From Dehalococcoidales bacterium (lineage in GTDB: Bacteria > Chloroflexota > Dehalococcoidia > Dehalococcoidales > BS750m-G39): DNA of 38,006 bases. Location of the stretch: NCBI GenBank assembly GCA_016783245.1, contig JADHWY010000001.1, positions 1 to 38,006 of the forward strand. Direction: 5' to 3'. Under the pieces are notes generated by a model. The model ran no database searches, was not told the origin of the DNA, and was given only the letters and a program-made list of their open reading frames with translations. Positions 6,792 through 34,375 of this stretch are shown here, in pieces (positions within the stretch are counted from its first letter, which is position 1; the number at the start of each line of letters is the position of its first letter). The translations under genes and the position numbers were made by a program.

Positions 6792-6947
6792 CTACTTCTT
6801 CTCCTCGGCCAGATATTTCTTCGGGTTCTGGTCGAAAGCCTTTTTACACCACATGGCGCAGAAGTAGTATTTCTTTCCCTTGTATTCGGATGTAGCTACT
6901 GCTTTGCTCTCCTCAACCTCCATCTTGCAGACAGGGTCAACTGCCAT
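6792..6947 (-). CDS. YHS domain mini-protein, last gene of the copper cluster
   Basis: This 51-residue protein is a single YHS domain. It has DPVCKMEV (residues 4-11), then KYYFCAMWCKKAF (about 26-38) and a lysine-rich tail. The conserved Cys of DPVC and the C-x3-C of the FCAMWC segment are the likely metal ligands. YHS modules occur in P-type ATPases and multicopper proteins and are linked to copper or other heavy-metal handling. The start is supported by AAGGAGGTG about 4 bases before the ATG. It begins 16 bases after copA ends on the same strand, so it is probably co-transcribed and may act as a small metal carrier for CopA; this is an inference. Confidence 0.85.
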   Translation of the reverse strand: MAVDPVCKMEVEESKAVATSEYKGKKYYFCAMWCKKAFDQNPKKYLAEEKK

Positions 6948-6963
6948 CGGACACCTCCTTTGA

Positions 6964-9486
6964 TTAATCTGCGAATTTGGCTGGCTTAAATTTCTTTAGG
7001 CGCAGTGAGTTGGTTACCACGGTAATGGAGCTGGCGGCCATAGCACCCGCAGCTAACATGGGATTCAAGAACCCATATTCACCCAGGATGAAGCGTAGTC
7101 CTGAGGGTACACCGGTCTGCCCGAAGACGAAAAATAGTGCTCCGGCAGCCACGGGAATAAGGGCGCTATTGTAGGCGAATGCCCAGAAGAGGTTTTGCTT
7201 GATGATTCTCAAGGTTCGCTTACTCAGGGTGATGGCAGTGACTACCCCCCTCAGGTCTCCGCTGATGAGGGTAATATTCGCTGCCTCCATAGCCACATCT
7301 GTCCCGGTGCCGATGGCGATACCCACATCCGCCTGAGCCAGAGCTGGGGCGTCATTTATCCCATCGCCTACCATGGCGACTATCTTCCCCTTATCCTGAA
7401 GCTTCTTTACCTCCTGGGATTTGTGTTCCGGCAGCACCTCAGCGAGGGCGCGGTCAATGCCTACCTCCTGGGCAATAGCATCAGCGGTGCGCTGATTGTC
7501 ACCAGTGAGCATCACCACCTCAAGCCCAAGGCGATGCAGCTCTCTCACTGCCTCTTTTGAGTTTGGCTTGAGGGTATCAGCTACGGCGATTATTCCGGCG
7601 GCTTGACCACCAATGCCCAGAAACATGGGGGTTTTCCCCTCATGGGAGAACTGAAAGGCCTTTTCCTCCAGACCCTCCATGGGGACTTCCTGCTCTTGCA
7701 TCAGTTTCAGATTACCCAGAAGCACCTTCTGCCCATTTACCTTGGCTTCAATACCATGACCGGCGATAGCGTTAAACTCAGTGGCATCGACTAGAGAGAG
7801 ATTCTTTTCCTTAGCTGCATTGACGATGGACTCTCCGAGTGGATGCTCGGAGCCTCGCTCCGCCGAGGCGGCCATCATGAGCAGCTCCTCTTCTCGAAAG
7901 TCAGGGGTGGCTACTACATCGGTTACCACTGGCTGACCCTGGGTGAGGGTGCCAGTTTTATCCAGGATAATGGCTTTTATCTTATGGGCTGTCTCCAGAG
8001 CCTCACCACTGCGGATAAGGACGCCGTTCTCGGCGCCTTTACCCGTCCCCACCATGATGGCGGTGGGGGTTGCCAGACCCAGAGCGCAGGGGCAGGCGAT
8101 AATGAGCACAGCGACGAAATTGAGCAGGGCAAAGGTGAGGGCGGGAACTGGTCCTATCGAGTACCAGATTATAAAAGTAGCGGCGGCAATGCCGATAACT
8201 ATGGGCACGAAGTAGCTGGAGATAACATCAGCCAGGCGCTGGATAGGAGCCTTGCTTCCCTGAGCTTCCTCCACCAGCTTGATAATCTGGGCCAGTGCTG
8301 TATCCTTACCCACCTTGGTCGCTTCAAAGCGAAAGCTGCCCGTCTTGTTGATGGTGGCGCCAATAACCTCGTCGCCAGCCCTCTTTTCCACAGGCATACT
8401 TTCACCAGTAACCATAGACTCATCAATACTGGAATAGCCCTCTTTAACGATGCCATCCACCGGCACCTTCTCCCCAGGCCGCACGATGACGATATCCCCT
8501 ACCACTACCTCTTCCACCGGTATATCTCGCTCCTCGCCTTGGCGCACTACCCTGGCTGTCTTGGCCTGCATACCGATGAGCTTCTTGATAGCCTCTGAGG
8601 TTTGTCCCTTAGCTCTAGCCTCCAGGAAGCGCCCGAGCAGGATAAGGGCGATAATGATGGCCGCGGTGTCAAAATAGACACTGGCCTCCCGTCCACCAGC
8701 GGCGAAGAAGCTGGGGAATAGAATAGCCGTCACGCTATAGAAATAGGCAGCTGATGTGCCGACGGCAATGAGGGTGTTCATGTTGGCTCTTTTGTGCTTT
8801 AAGGCTGCCCAAAAACCTTTGTAGAATTGCCAGCCTGCCCAGAATTGAACCGGCGTGGCCAGCGCCCAGAGAAGGTAGTGATTGCCTAAAGATGAAGGCA
8901 TCCACCCCCCTGAGAACTCAGAGATGGCGACAAGGAGCATGAAAAGACCTATGGTGCCGGCAAAGATTACCTTGTTCCACAGGGCGCGAACCTCCTGGCG
9001 GGCAGCCGCTGCCACGACATCGGGCTCGGCGATGCCCTCAGCGCTAACCTCAGCCTGGATGCTGTATCCGGCTCCTTCCACCGCCTGCCTGAAGTCGGCC
9101 ATACTGGACTCGCCCTCTAAGTATTGGATTGTTGCCTTCTCGCTGGCCAGATTAACATTAACTGAGATTACCCCCGGCACCTTAGCCAGGGCTTTCTCAA
9201 TGTTGGCCGCGCATGAAGCACAGGTCATGCCACCTACGCTAAAGGTTGTTTTCGCCACCGCCACGCCGTAACCCACATCCGAGATGGTATCCATCAATGT
9301 CTTTGTATCTACTTTGCTTGGCTCGTATTCAATAGACGCCTTTTCGCTGGCTAGGTTGACATTGACCCGGGATACCCCCGGTAGCTTAGAAAGCCCCTTC
9401 TCAATAGTAGTTGCACAAGAGGCACAAGTCATGCCTGTTATGTGAATATGGGTCTTCCTTTTCCCCCTTTTGGTTTCCTTTGCCAT
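6964..9486 (-). CDS. copA: Copper-exporting P-type ATPase (P1B-1)
   Basis: This 840-residue membrane ATPase pumps Cu+ out of the cytosol. Two N-terminal heavy-metal-binding domains each carry GMTCASC (Cys21/Cys24 and Cys89/Cys92). The transport-site motif CPC is at 465-467 and the phosphorylation site DKTGTLT begins at Asp509. The nucleotide-domain SEHPLGE and hinge [13 protein letters not shown] are present. The P1B-1 copper signature is complete, with AYNSA in helix 7 and MAASS in helix 8. TGES (360-363) is the actuator loop. The gene lies near the end of a CsoR-headed cluster, preceded by an 83-base gap and followed at 16 bases by the YHS gene. Copper rather than silver or zinc is supported by the motifs and the CsoR neighbour. 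Confidence 0.96.
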
Positions 9487-9569: not shown

Positions 9570-9722
9570 CTAGATTTCTTTATTTATAATCTTCTCTTTT
9601 AGAACTTCCCATTCACTCTTGGTCAAAACGCAGGTATTGTCCTTCTCGCCTATCTCGACATGGTCGTCATCTAATTTAACCACTGGACAATGTCCTGAAC
9701 CGCACAAGTTCACGATTTTCAT
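9570..9722 (-). CDS. 50-residue cysteine mini-protein in copper cluster, function unknown
   Basis: This short open frame codes for 50 residues and has a strong AAGGAGGTG 7 bases before its ATG, which makes it very likely translated. It starts MKIVNLCGSGHCPVVKL and has Cys7, Cys12 and His11 in a CGSGHC motif, with a third Cys near residue 31 (NTCVLT). The rest is acidic and then lysine-rich (WEVLKEKI). I do not recognise a named family. The CxxxHC arrangement and its place between the Met-rich lipoprotein and copA suggest a cytosolic metal-binding role, but this is inferred from position. It has no signal peptide or membrane segment. Confidence 0.75.
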   Translation of the reverse strand: MKIVNLCGSGHCPVVKLDDDHVEIGEKDNTCVLTKSEWEVLKEKIINKEI

Positions 9723-9782
9723 CTTTCTCACCTCCTTTCATTGTTACAATCTCTGGTTTTTTATTCCGTTTTCATGGCAGGG

Positions 9783-10535
9783 TCAGTGCTCAAAATCCTC
9801 CATTTGGATGAAGGGGCCGTGCCAGTTGTGGTACCATACCGCTCCGTCGTAGCCATTAACGCTCAGCATCCCCTCTATCCTCCCGTTCTCTAGGGTGTGC
9901 ATAGTATAATAGCCATAGAAAACTTCTGCCTCGCCCGTGGTAACCCCGGGCAGGTTGGTATCCAGAAATTGCTGGGCGAGTTCCTCGGCCTGCTCCTCGG
10001 TTACAGTCATGTCGGCAGCGGGTGATGCGTCTTTGTTGTAACTGCCCATCATTCCGTATTTGGTGTTCCACATCATATTGGGCCCCATCTCGGGATAGAC
10101 CTGGCCGGTGTATTTATCAATCAGGAGTTCCATAGCGTGGATGCCGGTGGTCTCATCCTCTACCTCGGCATAGAAGTTCCAGGTAAATTCCATAACCTCA
10201 ACAGCGGCTAGGTCCTGCCAGTAGGCGTTTAGATAGCGCTCTACTGACTCGGCTGCCTGGTCGATGGTAATTTGTTCTGCGTCCGGGTTGTATCCACCCC
10301 ATCCTCCCATCATGCTGCCTGGTCCCATCATGCCACCGTGCCTCATCATGCCGCTGGAGCCCATCATTCCCCCATATCCCGTCATGCTGTTGGAGCCCAT
10401 CATTTCCTCGTATTCTGTCGTTCCCTCGTTTCCCATCATGCCCCCCGGGTATAGCTGTCTCCCGCCGGGGACACAAGCCACTGCAGCTAGCGGCACTATT
10501 AGCGCAATCAGACCGACTAATAACCACTTCTTCAT
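9783..10535 (-). CDS. Met-rich lipoprotein with PepSY-like domains, probable extracytoplasmic copper binder
   Basis: This 250-residue secreted protein starts with a signal sequence ending LAAVAC, so Cys21 is the likely lipidation site (Ala at -3 is a less common lipobox residue). Residues 33-76 contain 13 methionines, mostly as MM pairs with Gly and one RHGG. They form three 12-residue repeats at 45-56, 57-68 and 69-80. Met-rich tracts of this kind bind Cu+ in periplasmic copper proteins. Two PepSY-like segments follow, one starting ITIDQAAESVERYL (about 89) and one MTVTEEQAEELAQQFL (about 176). The lgt gene lies directly upstream and copA two genes downstream, which fits a surface copper buffer or sensor. 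AGGAGGAAAGG precedes the ATG. Confidence 0.8.
   Translation of the reverse strand: MKKWLLVGLIALIVPLAAVACVPGGRQLYPGGMMGNEGTTEYEEMMGSNSMTGYGGMMGSSGMMRHGGMMGPGSMMGGWGGYNPDAEQITIDQAAESVERYLNAYWQDLAAVEVMEFTWNFYAEVEDETTGIHAMELLIDKYTGQVYPEMGPNMMWNTKYGMMGSYNKDASPAADMTVTEEQAEELAQQFLDTNLPGVTTGEAEVFYGYYTMHTLENGRIEGMLSVNGYDGAVWYHNWHGPFIQMEDFEH
10296..10403 (-). repeat. Three in-frame 36-bp repeats encoding the Met-rich tract
   Basis: Codons 45-80 of the lipoprotein gene form three tandem 12-codon units, each beginning Met-Met-Gly and ending Gly-Gly. The DNA copies are similar but not identical (recurring cccatcat on the plus strand). This fits an older expansion kept by protein-level selection, or a tract able to change copy number. 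Confidence 0.7.
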
Positions 10536-10648: not shown

Positions 10649-11467
10649 TTATGCCGAAGTCATAGGTTCAGGCTCATTTTCTAGCGGTACTCGCTTGCGA
10701 GCTAAATAGATTATGGCTATCACGGAGCTTACAAGGGCGAACATGGATATTACTTGTGCCTGTTGCAATCCCCAAAGTGTGATGTTTTCCTGTCGTACGA
10801 AGGTAAGGACGAGGCGTCCGAGGGAGTAGAGCGACACGTAGCTCAGGAATAACATTCCGTCTTTCTCAAAGCGGTAGCCGAGCTTCCCGATTACCAGCAG
10901 GGTTACCGCGTTCCAGATTATCTCATACAGTGGGTAGGGATGAGTTGGTATGCCAAACAGGTGTGGCGGAATCGAAGCACCGGGGTGGATGTAGATAAAG
11001 CCCCAGGGCAGGCTGGTAACACCACCGTAGGCATCTCCATTGATAATACAAGCGATTCTGCCTATGATAAATGCGACAAGTAACCCTGGAGCTAGCGCAT
11101 CACCAAGTCGACCTAGCGGAATATGTTTTATCCTGGCGCAAATAATAGTTCCTATCGCTGCCCCAATCAGCCCACCCCAGATAGCCAGGCCTCCCTGCTG
11201 GAGGTAAAATACCTGAGCTGGGTAGCTCATATAATGCGCCCAATGGTCTGCTACATGGAATAATCTGGCGCCTACTATGGCGCCAATCAGCATCCATGGA
11301 GCGACGGAGGAGATATCCTTTGTTGGAATTCCCTTTTTCTTGAGTCGGTGTGCTGTTATCAGCACGGCTGCTAGCACTGCCAAAATTATAATCAAACCGT
11401 ACCAGCGAAGCTCGAGAAATCCAATACGGAAGATTACCGGGTCTACATTAATAATGATGCCGTTCAT
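10649..11467 (-). CDS. lgt: Prolipoprotein diacylglyceryl transferase, diverged active-site motifs
   Basis: This 272-residue protein has about seven transmembrane helices. Lgt transfers diacylglycerol from phosphatidylglycerol to the lipobox cysteine of prolipoproteins at the membrane. The family signature is recognisable at 136-148 as GRIACIINGDAYG, but the usual Asn after GR-x-G is Cys140 and the usual Glu is Asp145. The HGGL motif reads WGGL (Trp97). The late R-x3-E-x2-R motif reads RLVLTFVR, with Thr222 for Glu. Arg137, Arg218, HPYPLYE and the overall length are kept. It starts 15 bases after the NfeD-like gene and is followed by a lipoprotein gene, its obvious possible substrate. Whether it is the cell's general Lgt or a cluster-specific copy cannot be told here. 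Confidence 0.88.
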   Translation of the reverse strand: MNGIIINVDPVIFRIGFLELRWYGLIIILAVLAAVLITAHRLKKKGIPTKDISSVAPWMLIGAIVGARLFHVADHWAHYMSYPAQVFYLQQGGLAIWGGLIGAAIGTIICARIKHIPLGRLGDALAPGLLVAFIIGRIACIINGDAYGGVTSLPWGFIYIHPGASIPPHLFGIPTHPYPLYEIIWNAVTLLVIGKLGYRFEKDGMLFLSYVSLYSLGRLVLTFVRQENITLWGLQQAQVISMFALVSSVIAIIYLARKRVPLENEPEPMTSA

Positions 11468-12910: not shown

Positions 12911-13204
12911 TTACCGCTTCATAGCCTTCCGTATCGCCCCCAGCAGTTCCGTGACGTATTCCTCCTCGCCGTGCTGGTTGCGGATAGCATCAGCGACGCA
13001 GCCCTTAATATGACTTTCCAGGATAAGTAATGAGACCTCGCCGGCGGCTGCCGAGAGAGCAGATAACTGCTGGACAATGTCTATACAGTAACGGCCCTCG
13101 GCAATCATTTGTTGAATACCCTTAGCCTGACCCTCAATTTTCCTCATCCTTGTCAGTAGAGACGATTTATCCTTGGTGTATCGATACTGACTTGTTGTAG
13201 GCAT
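12911..13204 (-). CDS. csoR: CsoR-type copper-sensing repressor
   Basis: This 97-residue all-alpha protein belongs to the CsoR/RcnR/FrmR family. The Cu+ site of CsoR is complete: Cys40 in RYCIDIVQQL, then His65 and Cys69 in ESHIKGC. The 25- and 4-residue spacings are the same as in characterised CsoR, and a Tyr directly precedes the first Cys. RcnR and FrmR use different N-terminal ligands. The family releases DNA when copper binds. The second ATG (13202-13204) was chosen because AAGGAGG is then 6 bases upstream; the first ATG (13207) is too close. A perfect inverted repeat overlaps the promoter just upstream, so it probably represses itself and the downstream copper genes through copA. Confidence 0.93.
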   Translation of the reverse strand: MPTTSQYRYTKDKSSLLTRMRKIEGQAKGIQQMIAEGRYCIDIVQQLSALSAAAGEVSLLILESHIKGCVADAIRNQHGEEEYVTELLGAIRKAMKR

Positions 13205-13252
13205 CATATTCCTCCTTACCAGCTAATAGCTGTATAACAGGTGAGTACCTGT

Positions 13253-13280
13253 ATATACCCTATACTAGCATAGGGTATAT
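13253..13280 (-). promoter_or_regulatory. Probable CsoR operator, perfect 11-bp inverted repeat
   Basis: The plus strand reads ATATACCCTAT (13253-13263), a 6-base centre and ATAGGGTATAT (13270-13280), a perfect two-fold repeat. TACCC/GGGTA half-sites are typical of CsoR-family operators. It covers the -10 box and part of the spacer of the csoR promoter, the position expected for a repressor. No second copy was seen before copA or the glutaredoxin gene. Confidence 0.85.
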
Positions 13281-13290
13281 CTTTTGTCAA
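13262..13290 (-). promoter_or_regulatory. csoR / copper cluster promoter
   Basis: On the minus strand TTGACA (13285-13290), a 17-base spacer and TAGTAT (13262-13267) lie 57 bases upstream of the csoR start. The CsoR inverted repeat overlaps the -10 box and most of the spacer. Confidence 0.8.
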
Positions 13291-33292: not shown

Positions 33293-34375
33293 TTAATTGA
33301 CAGGCAGTTGCGTCTTATAGTTGAAAAAGCCTTTTGTCCTGCGGCAGAGCCATACCAGAAATAGCATAAATGGGACTTCTGTCAACACCCCAACCACGGT
33401 GGCGAGGGCGGCTCCGGAGGTTACGCCGAAGATAGTTATGGCTACCGCCACGGCTACCTCGAAGTGATTACTGCCGGCAATGAGGGCAGTGGGCGCCGCA
33501 TCCTCATAGGGAAGGTGCATGCGCTTGGACATGATGTAGGCGATGCCGAAAACGAGGAGGATATTGAGGAATATGGGGATGGCAATCATGCCTACTACTG
33601 CTGGCATCTCAATGATTATGCTGCCCTGCAGAGTGAACAATATCACCAGAGTGCCGAGAAGGGCAATTATTGATACCATGCGTAGTTTAGGAACTAACCT
33701 GGATTCAAACCACTCGGAGCCTCTTCGTGTAAGTGCCCAGCGTCGGGTAAGGTAGCCCAGAATAAGGGGAGTGCCGATATAGATTCCCACCGAAAAGGCT
33801 ATAGTTCTCCACGGTACTATAATCCCTGAAATACCAAGCAGCAACTGTGCCAGGGGGGCATAGAGGGCCACCATGGTTAGAGAGTTTACGGCGGTCATCA
33901 TCACCGTGTGTCCCATGTTTCCCCTTGCCAGGTGACTCCACATAAGGACCATAGCGGTGCAGGGGGCAACGCCGAGAAGGATTAGCCCTGCCTGATATGA
34001 CTGGGCCATTTCAGGAGACAGGTAGCCCTTGAAGACTATGGTCAGAAACACCATGCCAAGGAGAGCCATGGTGAAAGGCTTGATTGCCCAGTTAGCGATA
34101 AGCGTGGCTGCGATTGGCTTGGGGGTTTTGCCTGCCCTTAACACCTGGCCGAATGGTATCTGCACCATTATGGGATATATCATAAAGAATAGGCCGATAG
34201 CCACCGGAATGGACACGCCGGCATATGTTAGTTCGCCTAGAGCGGTGGAGAATTGGGGGAAAGCCCTTCCCATCCCTATCCCGGCGCCAATACCCAGCGC
34301 TACCCACAGGGTAAGATACTTCTCCCAGATTCCGAGTTTTCTTTCCTTGTTGTCCTCTGATTTAGTCTGCTCCAT
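33293..34375 (-). CDS. acr3: ACR3-family arsenite efflux permease
   Basis: This 360-residue protein has about ten membrane helices and exports arsenite. The conserved Cys139 in GVAPCTAMVLMWSHLARGN is the mark of the ACR3 family, and the late SNHFEVAVAVAI and LTEVPFML segments hold the conserved polar residues. ACR3 is unrelated to the ArsB permease. It lies 19 bases downstream of arsR on the same strand, forming a two-gene resistance operon. No arsenate reductase (arsC) or ArsA ATPase is present, so this operon handles arsenite only, unless a reductase lies elsewhere. Confidence 0.95.
   Translation of the reverse strand: MEQTKSEDNKERKLGIWEKYLTLWVALGIGAGIGMGRAFPQFSTALGELTYAGVSIPVAIGLFFMIYPIMVQIPFGQVLRAGKTPKPIAATLIANWAIKPFTMALLGMVFLTIVFKGYLSPEMAQSYQAGLILLGVAPCTAMVLMWSHLARGNMGHTVMMTAVNSLTMVALYAPLAQLLLGISGIIVPWRTIAFSVGIYIGTPLILGYLTRRWALTRRGSEWFESRLVPKLRMVSIIALLGTLVILFTLQGSIIIEMPAVVGMIAIPIFLNILLVFGIAYIMSKRMHLPYEDAAPTALIAGSNHFEVAVAVAITIFGVTSGAALATVVGVLTEVPFMLFLVWLCRRTKGFFNYKTQLPVN

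Follow-up and report, generated by a model that had tools for sequence, protein, structure and literature searches.

PepSY domains, which are common, are still poorly understood, and the locus analyzed here raises the question of what a lipoprotein might do that joins two PepSY-like segments to a methionine-rich tract and is encoded close to a copper pump. The gene, coding for 250 amino acids, is located at 9783..10535 (-) in the window, i.e., the whole analyzed stretch of 38,006 nucleotides from a Dehalococcoidales bacterium. The original prediction, made from the sequence, was that the protein could represent an undescribed copper buffer or sensor at the cell surface with a possibly variable number of methionine repeats.

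A lipoprotein gene between csoR and copA

The lipoprotein gene occurs in one copy in the assembly, and its open reading frame is taken as real from homologues in other phyla and from an upstream GGAGG that reads as a ribosome-binding-like sequence. Direct reading of the sequence places a signal peptide with the lipobox AVAC at residues 1–21 (10473..10535, -), with Cys21 as the residue to be lipidated. This lipobox, which is common to most of the Dehalococcoidia-type relatives L002–L009, bears out the predicted lipoprotein. A gene for the prolipoprotein diacylglyceryl transferase Lgt (10649..11467, -; PF01790, E 2e-57) lies 113 nt upstream.

Both genes belong to a co-directional series with gaps of 15–113 nt, encoding in order a CsoR-family repressor, an RnfB-like ferredoxin protein, NfeD, Lgt, the lipoprotein, a 53-residue protein with three cysteines, CopA, and a YHS protein. 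The repressor gene (12911..13207, -; PF02583, E 1e-25; best NCBIfam match RicR, below its cut-off) encodes Cys41, His66, and Cys70, whose spacing is that of the Cu(I) site known from CsoR. Motif scans revealed that the csoR promoter is overlain by a perfect inverted repeat of 11 bp (ATATACCCTAT-N6-ATAGGGTATAT, 13253..13280, no strand assigned), a probable CsoR operator that overlaps the -10 region. Even with three mismatches allowed, the assembly contains this palindrome only once; its expected count in the window is 0.01, and a comparable palindrome-like sequence can be recognized by eye at the same place in the relative L002. The promoter scan also proposed a sigma-70-like promoter, TTGACA-17-TAGTAT (13262..13290, -), although its matches overall appeared at chance frequency; apart from the csoR palindrome, the terminator and promoter scan as a whole stayed at chance level.

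Downstream of the lipoprotein gene by 296 nt, with only the 53-residue open reading frame between them, follows the gene for a CopA-type P1B ATPase with two HMA domains and a CPC motif (6964..9486, -; PF00122 and two PF00403 matches), and beyond it the gene for the small YHS-domain protein (6792..6947, -; PF04945, E 1e-15). Because the repressor carries the Cys-His-Cys set, a single palindrome covers its promoter, and copA runs in the same direction, control of this cluster by copper is well supported. CsoR would bind the palindrome, and transcription would probably extend through the lipoprotein gene and copA.

The 53-residue protein (9570..9731, -) is conserved, undescribed, and encoded in 26 of 197 genomes of the class; no Pfam or NCBIfam family matched it above cut-off. 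The protein, which sits between the lipoprotein and copA, shows the motif CGSGHCP...C. Its family has a second copy in the assembly (C52:5149-5304), and members lie near PepSY or ATPase genes in the genomes G037 and G017. Elsewhere in the window, an SBF-fold transporter (33293-34375, -; PF01758) is possibly an arsenite exporter of the ACR3 type.

A variable methionine-rich arm

The part of the protein that follows the lipid anchor, residues 33–80 (10296..10439, -), is a methionine-rich tract. Counting confirmed exactly 13 methionines in the 44 residues 33–76, a number reached in 29 of 20,000 shuffles of the whole protein, and among the 64 open reading frames of at least 80 codons in the window, the lipoprotein alone exceeds 6 methionines per 44 residues. 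The triplet MMG starts at residues 33, 45, 57, and 69, i.e., at three full 12-residue intervals, with a further MMG at residue 75; four evenly spaced MMG triplets arose once in 200,000 shuffles of the tract. The proposed tandem 12-residue units are thus exact in their spacing, but the basic repeat is shorter. Tandem Repeats Finder detected a DNA period of 18 nt, corresponding to the hexads MMGNEG, TTEYEE, MMGSNS, MTGYGG, MMGSSG, MMRHGG, MMGPGS, and MMGGWG, and the 12-residue unit is therefore a pair of 6-residue half-units. Since the four 36-nt units share only 50–75% pairwise identity, the repeat has already diverged and is no longer fresh. AlphaFold2, run with a 73-row alignment, assigned most of the tract pLDDT values below 55, which predicts disorder.

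Across relatives, the number of MMG triplets in the tract ranges from 0 to 9, in agreement with the predicted variability. Two pairs of loci, L012/L016 and L046/L059, have cores that are 94–97% identical and yet differ by 2–3 MMG, from which copy number appears to change fast, although the sequences are metagenome assemblies. The commonest spacings between MMG triplets are 5, 7, and 10 residues; a spacing of 12 is rare among relatives and particular to the window protein, and we rejected a functional role for it. Methionine doublets are kept in most tracts despite changing length and spacing. The tract does not, however, run through the whole family: it is down to 2–5 methionines in some members from Chloroflexota, and the Bathyarchaeota members L055 and L069 lack it altogether. 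Homologues that lose the tract in an unchanged gene context would speak against the predicted role, and these two are not strictly such cases, as they adjoin genes for SHOCT proteins and not copA.

A tandem PepSY core with invariant residues

Beyond the tract, the AlphaFold2 model from the same 73-row alignment contains a confident core at approximately residues 84–245, mostly with pLDDT above 90. Modeled alone, this core reached a mean pLDDT of 91.9 and a pTM of 0.86 and consists of two repeats of a helix plus an antiparallel sheet. The first PepSY-like domain (approximately residues 86–150; 10086..10280, -) is delimited by the core model and by Pfam PepSY matches in relatives, the second (approximately residues 176–243; 9807..10010, -) by the core model. 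The top match among solved structures is the C-terminal domain of YpeB (PDB 5boi), itself a tandem PepSY protein (Foldseek E 1.5e-4, probability 1.00; VIA Z 6.2–6.6, which is moderate). The window protein gave no Pfam PepSY match at E <= 1, either to PF03413 or to its sub-profiles; PepSY was matched by 40 of 73 relatives at E <= 0.05 (best 2e-6), and YPEB_PepSY1-2 by 35. Good support therefore exists for the two PepSY-like segments of the original prediction, chiefly by way of the family, from the relatives' Pfam matches together with the core model and its fold match to YpeB.

Other searches delimit what the protein resembles. Pfam matches to DUF4901, DUF6022, and Metal_resist fell far below cut-offs (Metal_resist at E 0.38). 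No Pfam or NCBIfam profile of copper-binding families such as CusF and PcoE/SilE matched at E <= 1, and no metal-binding profile gave a match. Sequence searches of solved structures with full-length and core profiles found no relative; a TraH match at E 0.063 was taken as chance. Copper amine oxidases that appeared in the VIA lists were not regarded as kin, as they share only the shape of a small alpha/beta domain (Z ~5). UipA is absent from the fold matches listed, which has no bearing on kinship.

With YpeB as the best fold match and YPEB_PepSY1-2 matched by some members, the protein could be a YpeB-like, peptidase- or cell-wall-related PepSY protein with a low-complexity linker. We give this only a very slight probability: peptidase or wall genes are not recurrent neighbors of the family, the neighbors are metal-related, and a low-complexity linker alone leaves the methionine doublets unexplained. 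YpeB is the closest solved fold to the core, but the two share 12–13% identity, and YpeB is a spore germination protein whose annotation has no metal link.

The strongest conservation lies in the core. Met154, Trp156, Met223, Trp234, His236, Trp238, and His239 are identical in all 78 core sequences, and Met155 (77 of 78) and Met150 (75 of 78) are nearly so; this invariance spans Chloroflexota, Ca. Methanoperedens, and Bathyarchaeota. Most of these residues fall into two motifs, PEMGPNMMWNTKY at residues 148–160 (10056..10094, -) and WYHNWHG at residues 234–240 (9816..9836, -), which in their general forms PEMGPNMMWN and WYHxWHG follow the first and second PepSY repeats, respectively, at corresponding ends. 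Fixed residues in the core are the pattern expected if the defining function resides in the core and not in the arm. Invariance of Trp and Met may also reflect packing, which counts against reading these positions as a metal site.

Surface methionine tracts can quench oxidants, and the arm might accordingly be a sacrificial oxidant sink attached to a structural PepSY module, with metal incidental; thioredoxin-like neighbors in Methanoperedens would suit this role. Such a sink would leave the invariant His and Trp residues unexplained, methionine sulfoxide reductase is absent from the recurrent neighbor families, and the host lineages are mostly anaerobes. We regard it as highly improbable.

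The combination of a methionine arm, tandem PepSY domains, and an invariant Met/His/Trp core did not turn up in Pfam, NCBIfam, solved structures, or the searched literature, where we also found no description of methionine-rich PepSY copper proteins, of PepSY proteins in Methanoperedens, or of the motif GPNMMWN. That the combination is undescribed, as originally proposed, is in line with these searches, in which no curated family fitted.

Relatives, their neighborhoods, and a proposed function

A homologue scan of species genomes yielded 98 homologous loci, of which 80 were kept. The hosts are Chloroflexota, Ca. Methanoperedens, Bathyarchaeota, and one Desulforamulus, and presence is patchy, with the gene found in 2 of 11 genomes of the host family and 19 of 393 genomes of the class. 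In a tree of the cores, nine rows from Dehalococcoidia and other Chloroflexota cluster with the window copy (support 100/99), whose nearest relative is L002. This is apparently a large and widespread family that has so far been left unnamed and without description. A decayed copy, L103:1495-1756 (-), consists of fragments with stops just upstream of an ATPase with a CPH motif and a Met/His-rich N-terminus.

The predicted proximity to copA holds for the window but does not generalize. CsoR and CopA occur together near only the window copy and its nearest relative L002, where csoR and copA lie ~6 kb away; L083 (genome G263), a close copy of L002, shares its contig with a csoR gene at a distance of ~6 kb. 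Copper-type ATPases stand near a few other relatives. A cupredoxin-HMA-ATPase fusion gene is next on the same strand at L082 (genome G006, from a different genus of the host family), a YHS-CopA fusion is encoded near L076, and L031, like the decayed L103, lies near a CPH-motif ATPase. At L082, a single open reading frame (L082:2-1159, -) combines a cupredoxin and an HMA domain with a membrane segment and the beginning of a P-type ATPase, and the contig ends inside it. CopA-resembling regions were found at 15 of 80 loci, many of them not of the copper type, and we rejected a general association with copA.

Most relatives instead adjoin genes for ArsR regulators, SHOCT membrane proteins, thioredoxin-like proteins, DsrE, FAD sulfide-dehydrogenase-like proteins, cysteine desulfurase, or sensor kinases, and DUF302 is also among the recurrent neighbors. 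The term copper buffer may therefore be too specific for the protein. These neighbors, together with P-type ATPases of mixed metal type, including some without a copper signature, would fit a broader stress protein for soft metals or thiol-redox chemistry (Ag, Hg, Cd, As, or persulfide) that came to lie in a copper operon here by chance. The window copy, however, comes under a regulator of the CsoR type that has copper ligands, and a copper-type pump lies nearby; the copper link is repeated at L082, and arms with methionine only and few cysteines make Cu(I) or Ag(I) a better fit than Hg or As. We consider such a broader stress protein rather unlikely.

Methionine motifs recur in the neighboring genes themselves. 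Loops resembling GMMGPGMMG are present in many of the SHOCT partners (e.g., L002:1729-2085) and are the same kind of methionine motif as in the lipoprotein, but the SHOCT proteins are short and have no PepSY domain; no such SHOCT protein was found in the window's assembly. Near L038, a kinase confirmed by Pfam (L038:5551-7023) has a methionine-rich loop, with 17 methionines in all. Methionine-rich stretches occur in the sensory regions of this protein and of two other kinases or kinase-like proteins (L037:2539-4398 and L077:4003-5466), and are reminiscent of metal-sensing kinases. A similar methionine cluster, with up to 13 methionines in 44 residues, was seen in Methanoperedens proteins of ~400 residues (L010:10476-11687 and L046_1), the L010 copy of which has no Pfam match. 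The pattern suggests methionine-based soft-metal chemistry as a theme of these neighborhoods, with a metal that may differ between hosts.

A histidine kinase and a response regulator adjoin several Chloroflexota relatives, and PepSY proteins are common beside two-component systems, with one of them acting on the kinase (PMC12714742). The lipoprotein could by analogy be an extracytoplasmic signaling accessory that binds and modulates a sensor kinase, whether or not in a metal-dependent manner, in the way that DbfQ acts on DbfS. This appears improbable for the window copy, which no kinase gene or two-component system adjoins and whose predicted regulator is the cytoplasmic CsoR; nor are kinases recurrent direct neighbors of the Methanoperedens and Dehalococcoidia-type relatives.

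We instead propose that the protein is a lipid-anchored, extracytoplasmic capture protein for soft metals, Cu(I) in this organism, a reading drawn from sequence comparisons that we give an even chance of being correct. Within the tandem PepSY core, Met 150, 154, 155, and 223, His 236 and 239, and Trp 156, 234, and 238 would build a fixed site, and the disordered arm between anchor and core would supply additional Cu(I) ligands of low specificity in a number that expands and shrinks. On entry of copper into the cell, CsoR would sense the metal and leave the operator, which would induce the cluster with the lipoprotein, CopA, and the YHS protein; exported Cu(I) would then be buffered by the lipoprotein at the outer face of the membrane. 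Soft-metal capture is supported by the invariant core, the kept methionine doublets, the csoR cluster, the copper links at L082, L002, and L083, the methionine-bearing neighbors, and the precedent of the tandem PepSY proteins UipA and LanP. It is weakened by the majority of relatives that are not beside copper genes, by tracts that are absent or poor in some members, and by the missing match to any metal profile.

CusF, PcoE/SilE, and CopI hold copper with Met/His ligands outside the cytoplasm, and CopI was also encountered in this analysis. They have other folds than the lipoprotein and gave no profile match to it, and we know of no methionine-rich copper protein that joins a methionine arm to a tandem PepSY core. 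Metal-binding tandem PepSY proteins and methionine-rich copper proteins are each known.

UipA of Microbacterium is described as a tandem PepSY protein that binds uranyl and iron (PMC8963506). Like the lipoprotein, with its lipobox and tandem PepSY core, it is membrane-anchored, extracytoplasmic, and metal-related, and it has two-component genes adjacent, as do some relatives here. UipA reportedly spans the membrane once and binds uranyl on a negatively charged face, unlike a lipoprotein whose methionine arm and invariant Met/His/Trp residues point to soft metals. We do not place the lipoprotein in the UipA group, from which it is set apart by UipA's description and not by sequence comparison. 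LanP (lanpepsy) of Methylobacillus flagellatus is likewise a secreted protein with two PepSY domains that binds metal ions, in its case lanthanides (PMC11845868). It differs in being periplasmic and in its Asp/Glu lanthanide sites, and no methionine tract is mentioned there.

Taken more broadly, the conserved residues could mark an undescribed family of extracytoplasmic proteins in Chloroflexota and archaea, including the methane-oxidizing Methanoperedens; in such proteins, a new invariant Met/Trp/His site for Cu(I) or Ag(I) would be part of the PepSY fold, while a fast-varying, disordered methionine arm would tune metal capacity, a proposal we make tentatively and judge less probable than its negation. 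The ligands of UipA and LanP, the two tandem PepSY proteins for which the papers considered here describe ligands, are hard metals (uranyl and lanthanides) and iron. A conserved set of soft ligands in a tandem PepSY core would, if true, extend metal binding by this fold to copper-like ions and open a concrete way to study how uncultured Chloroflexota and Methanoperedens handle copper, and the variable arm would be a natural test of whether the length of a methionine tract tracks metal capacity.
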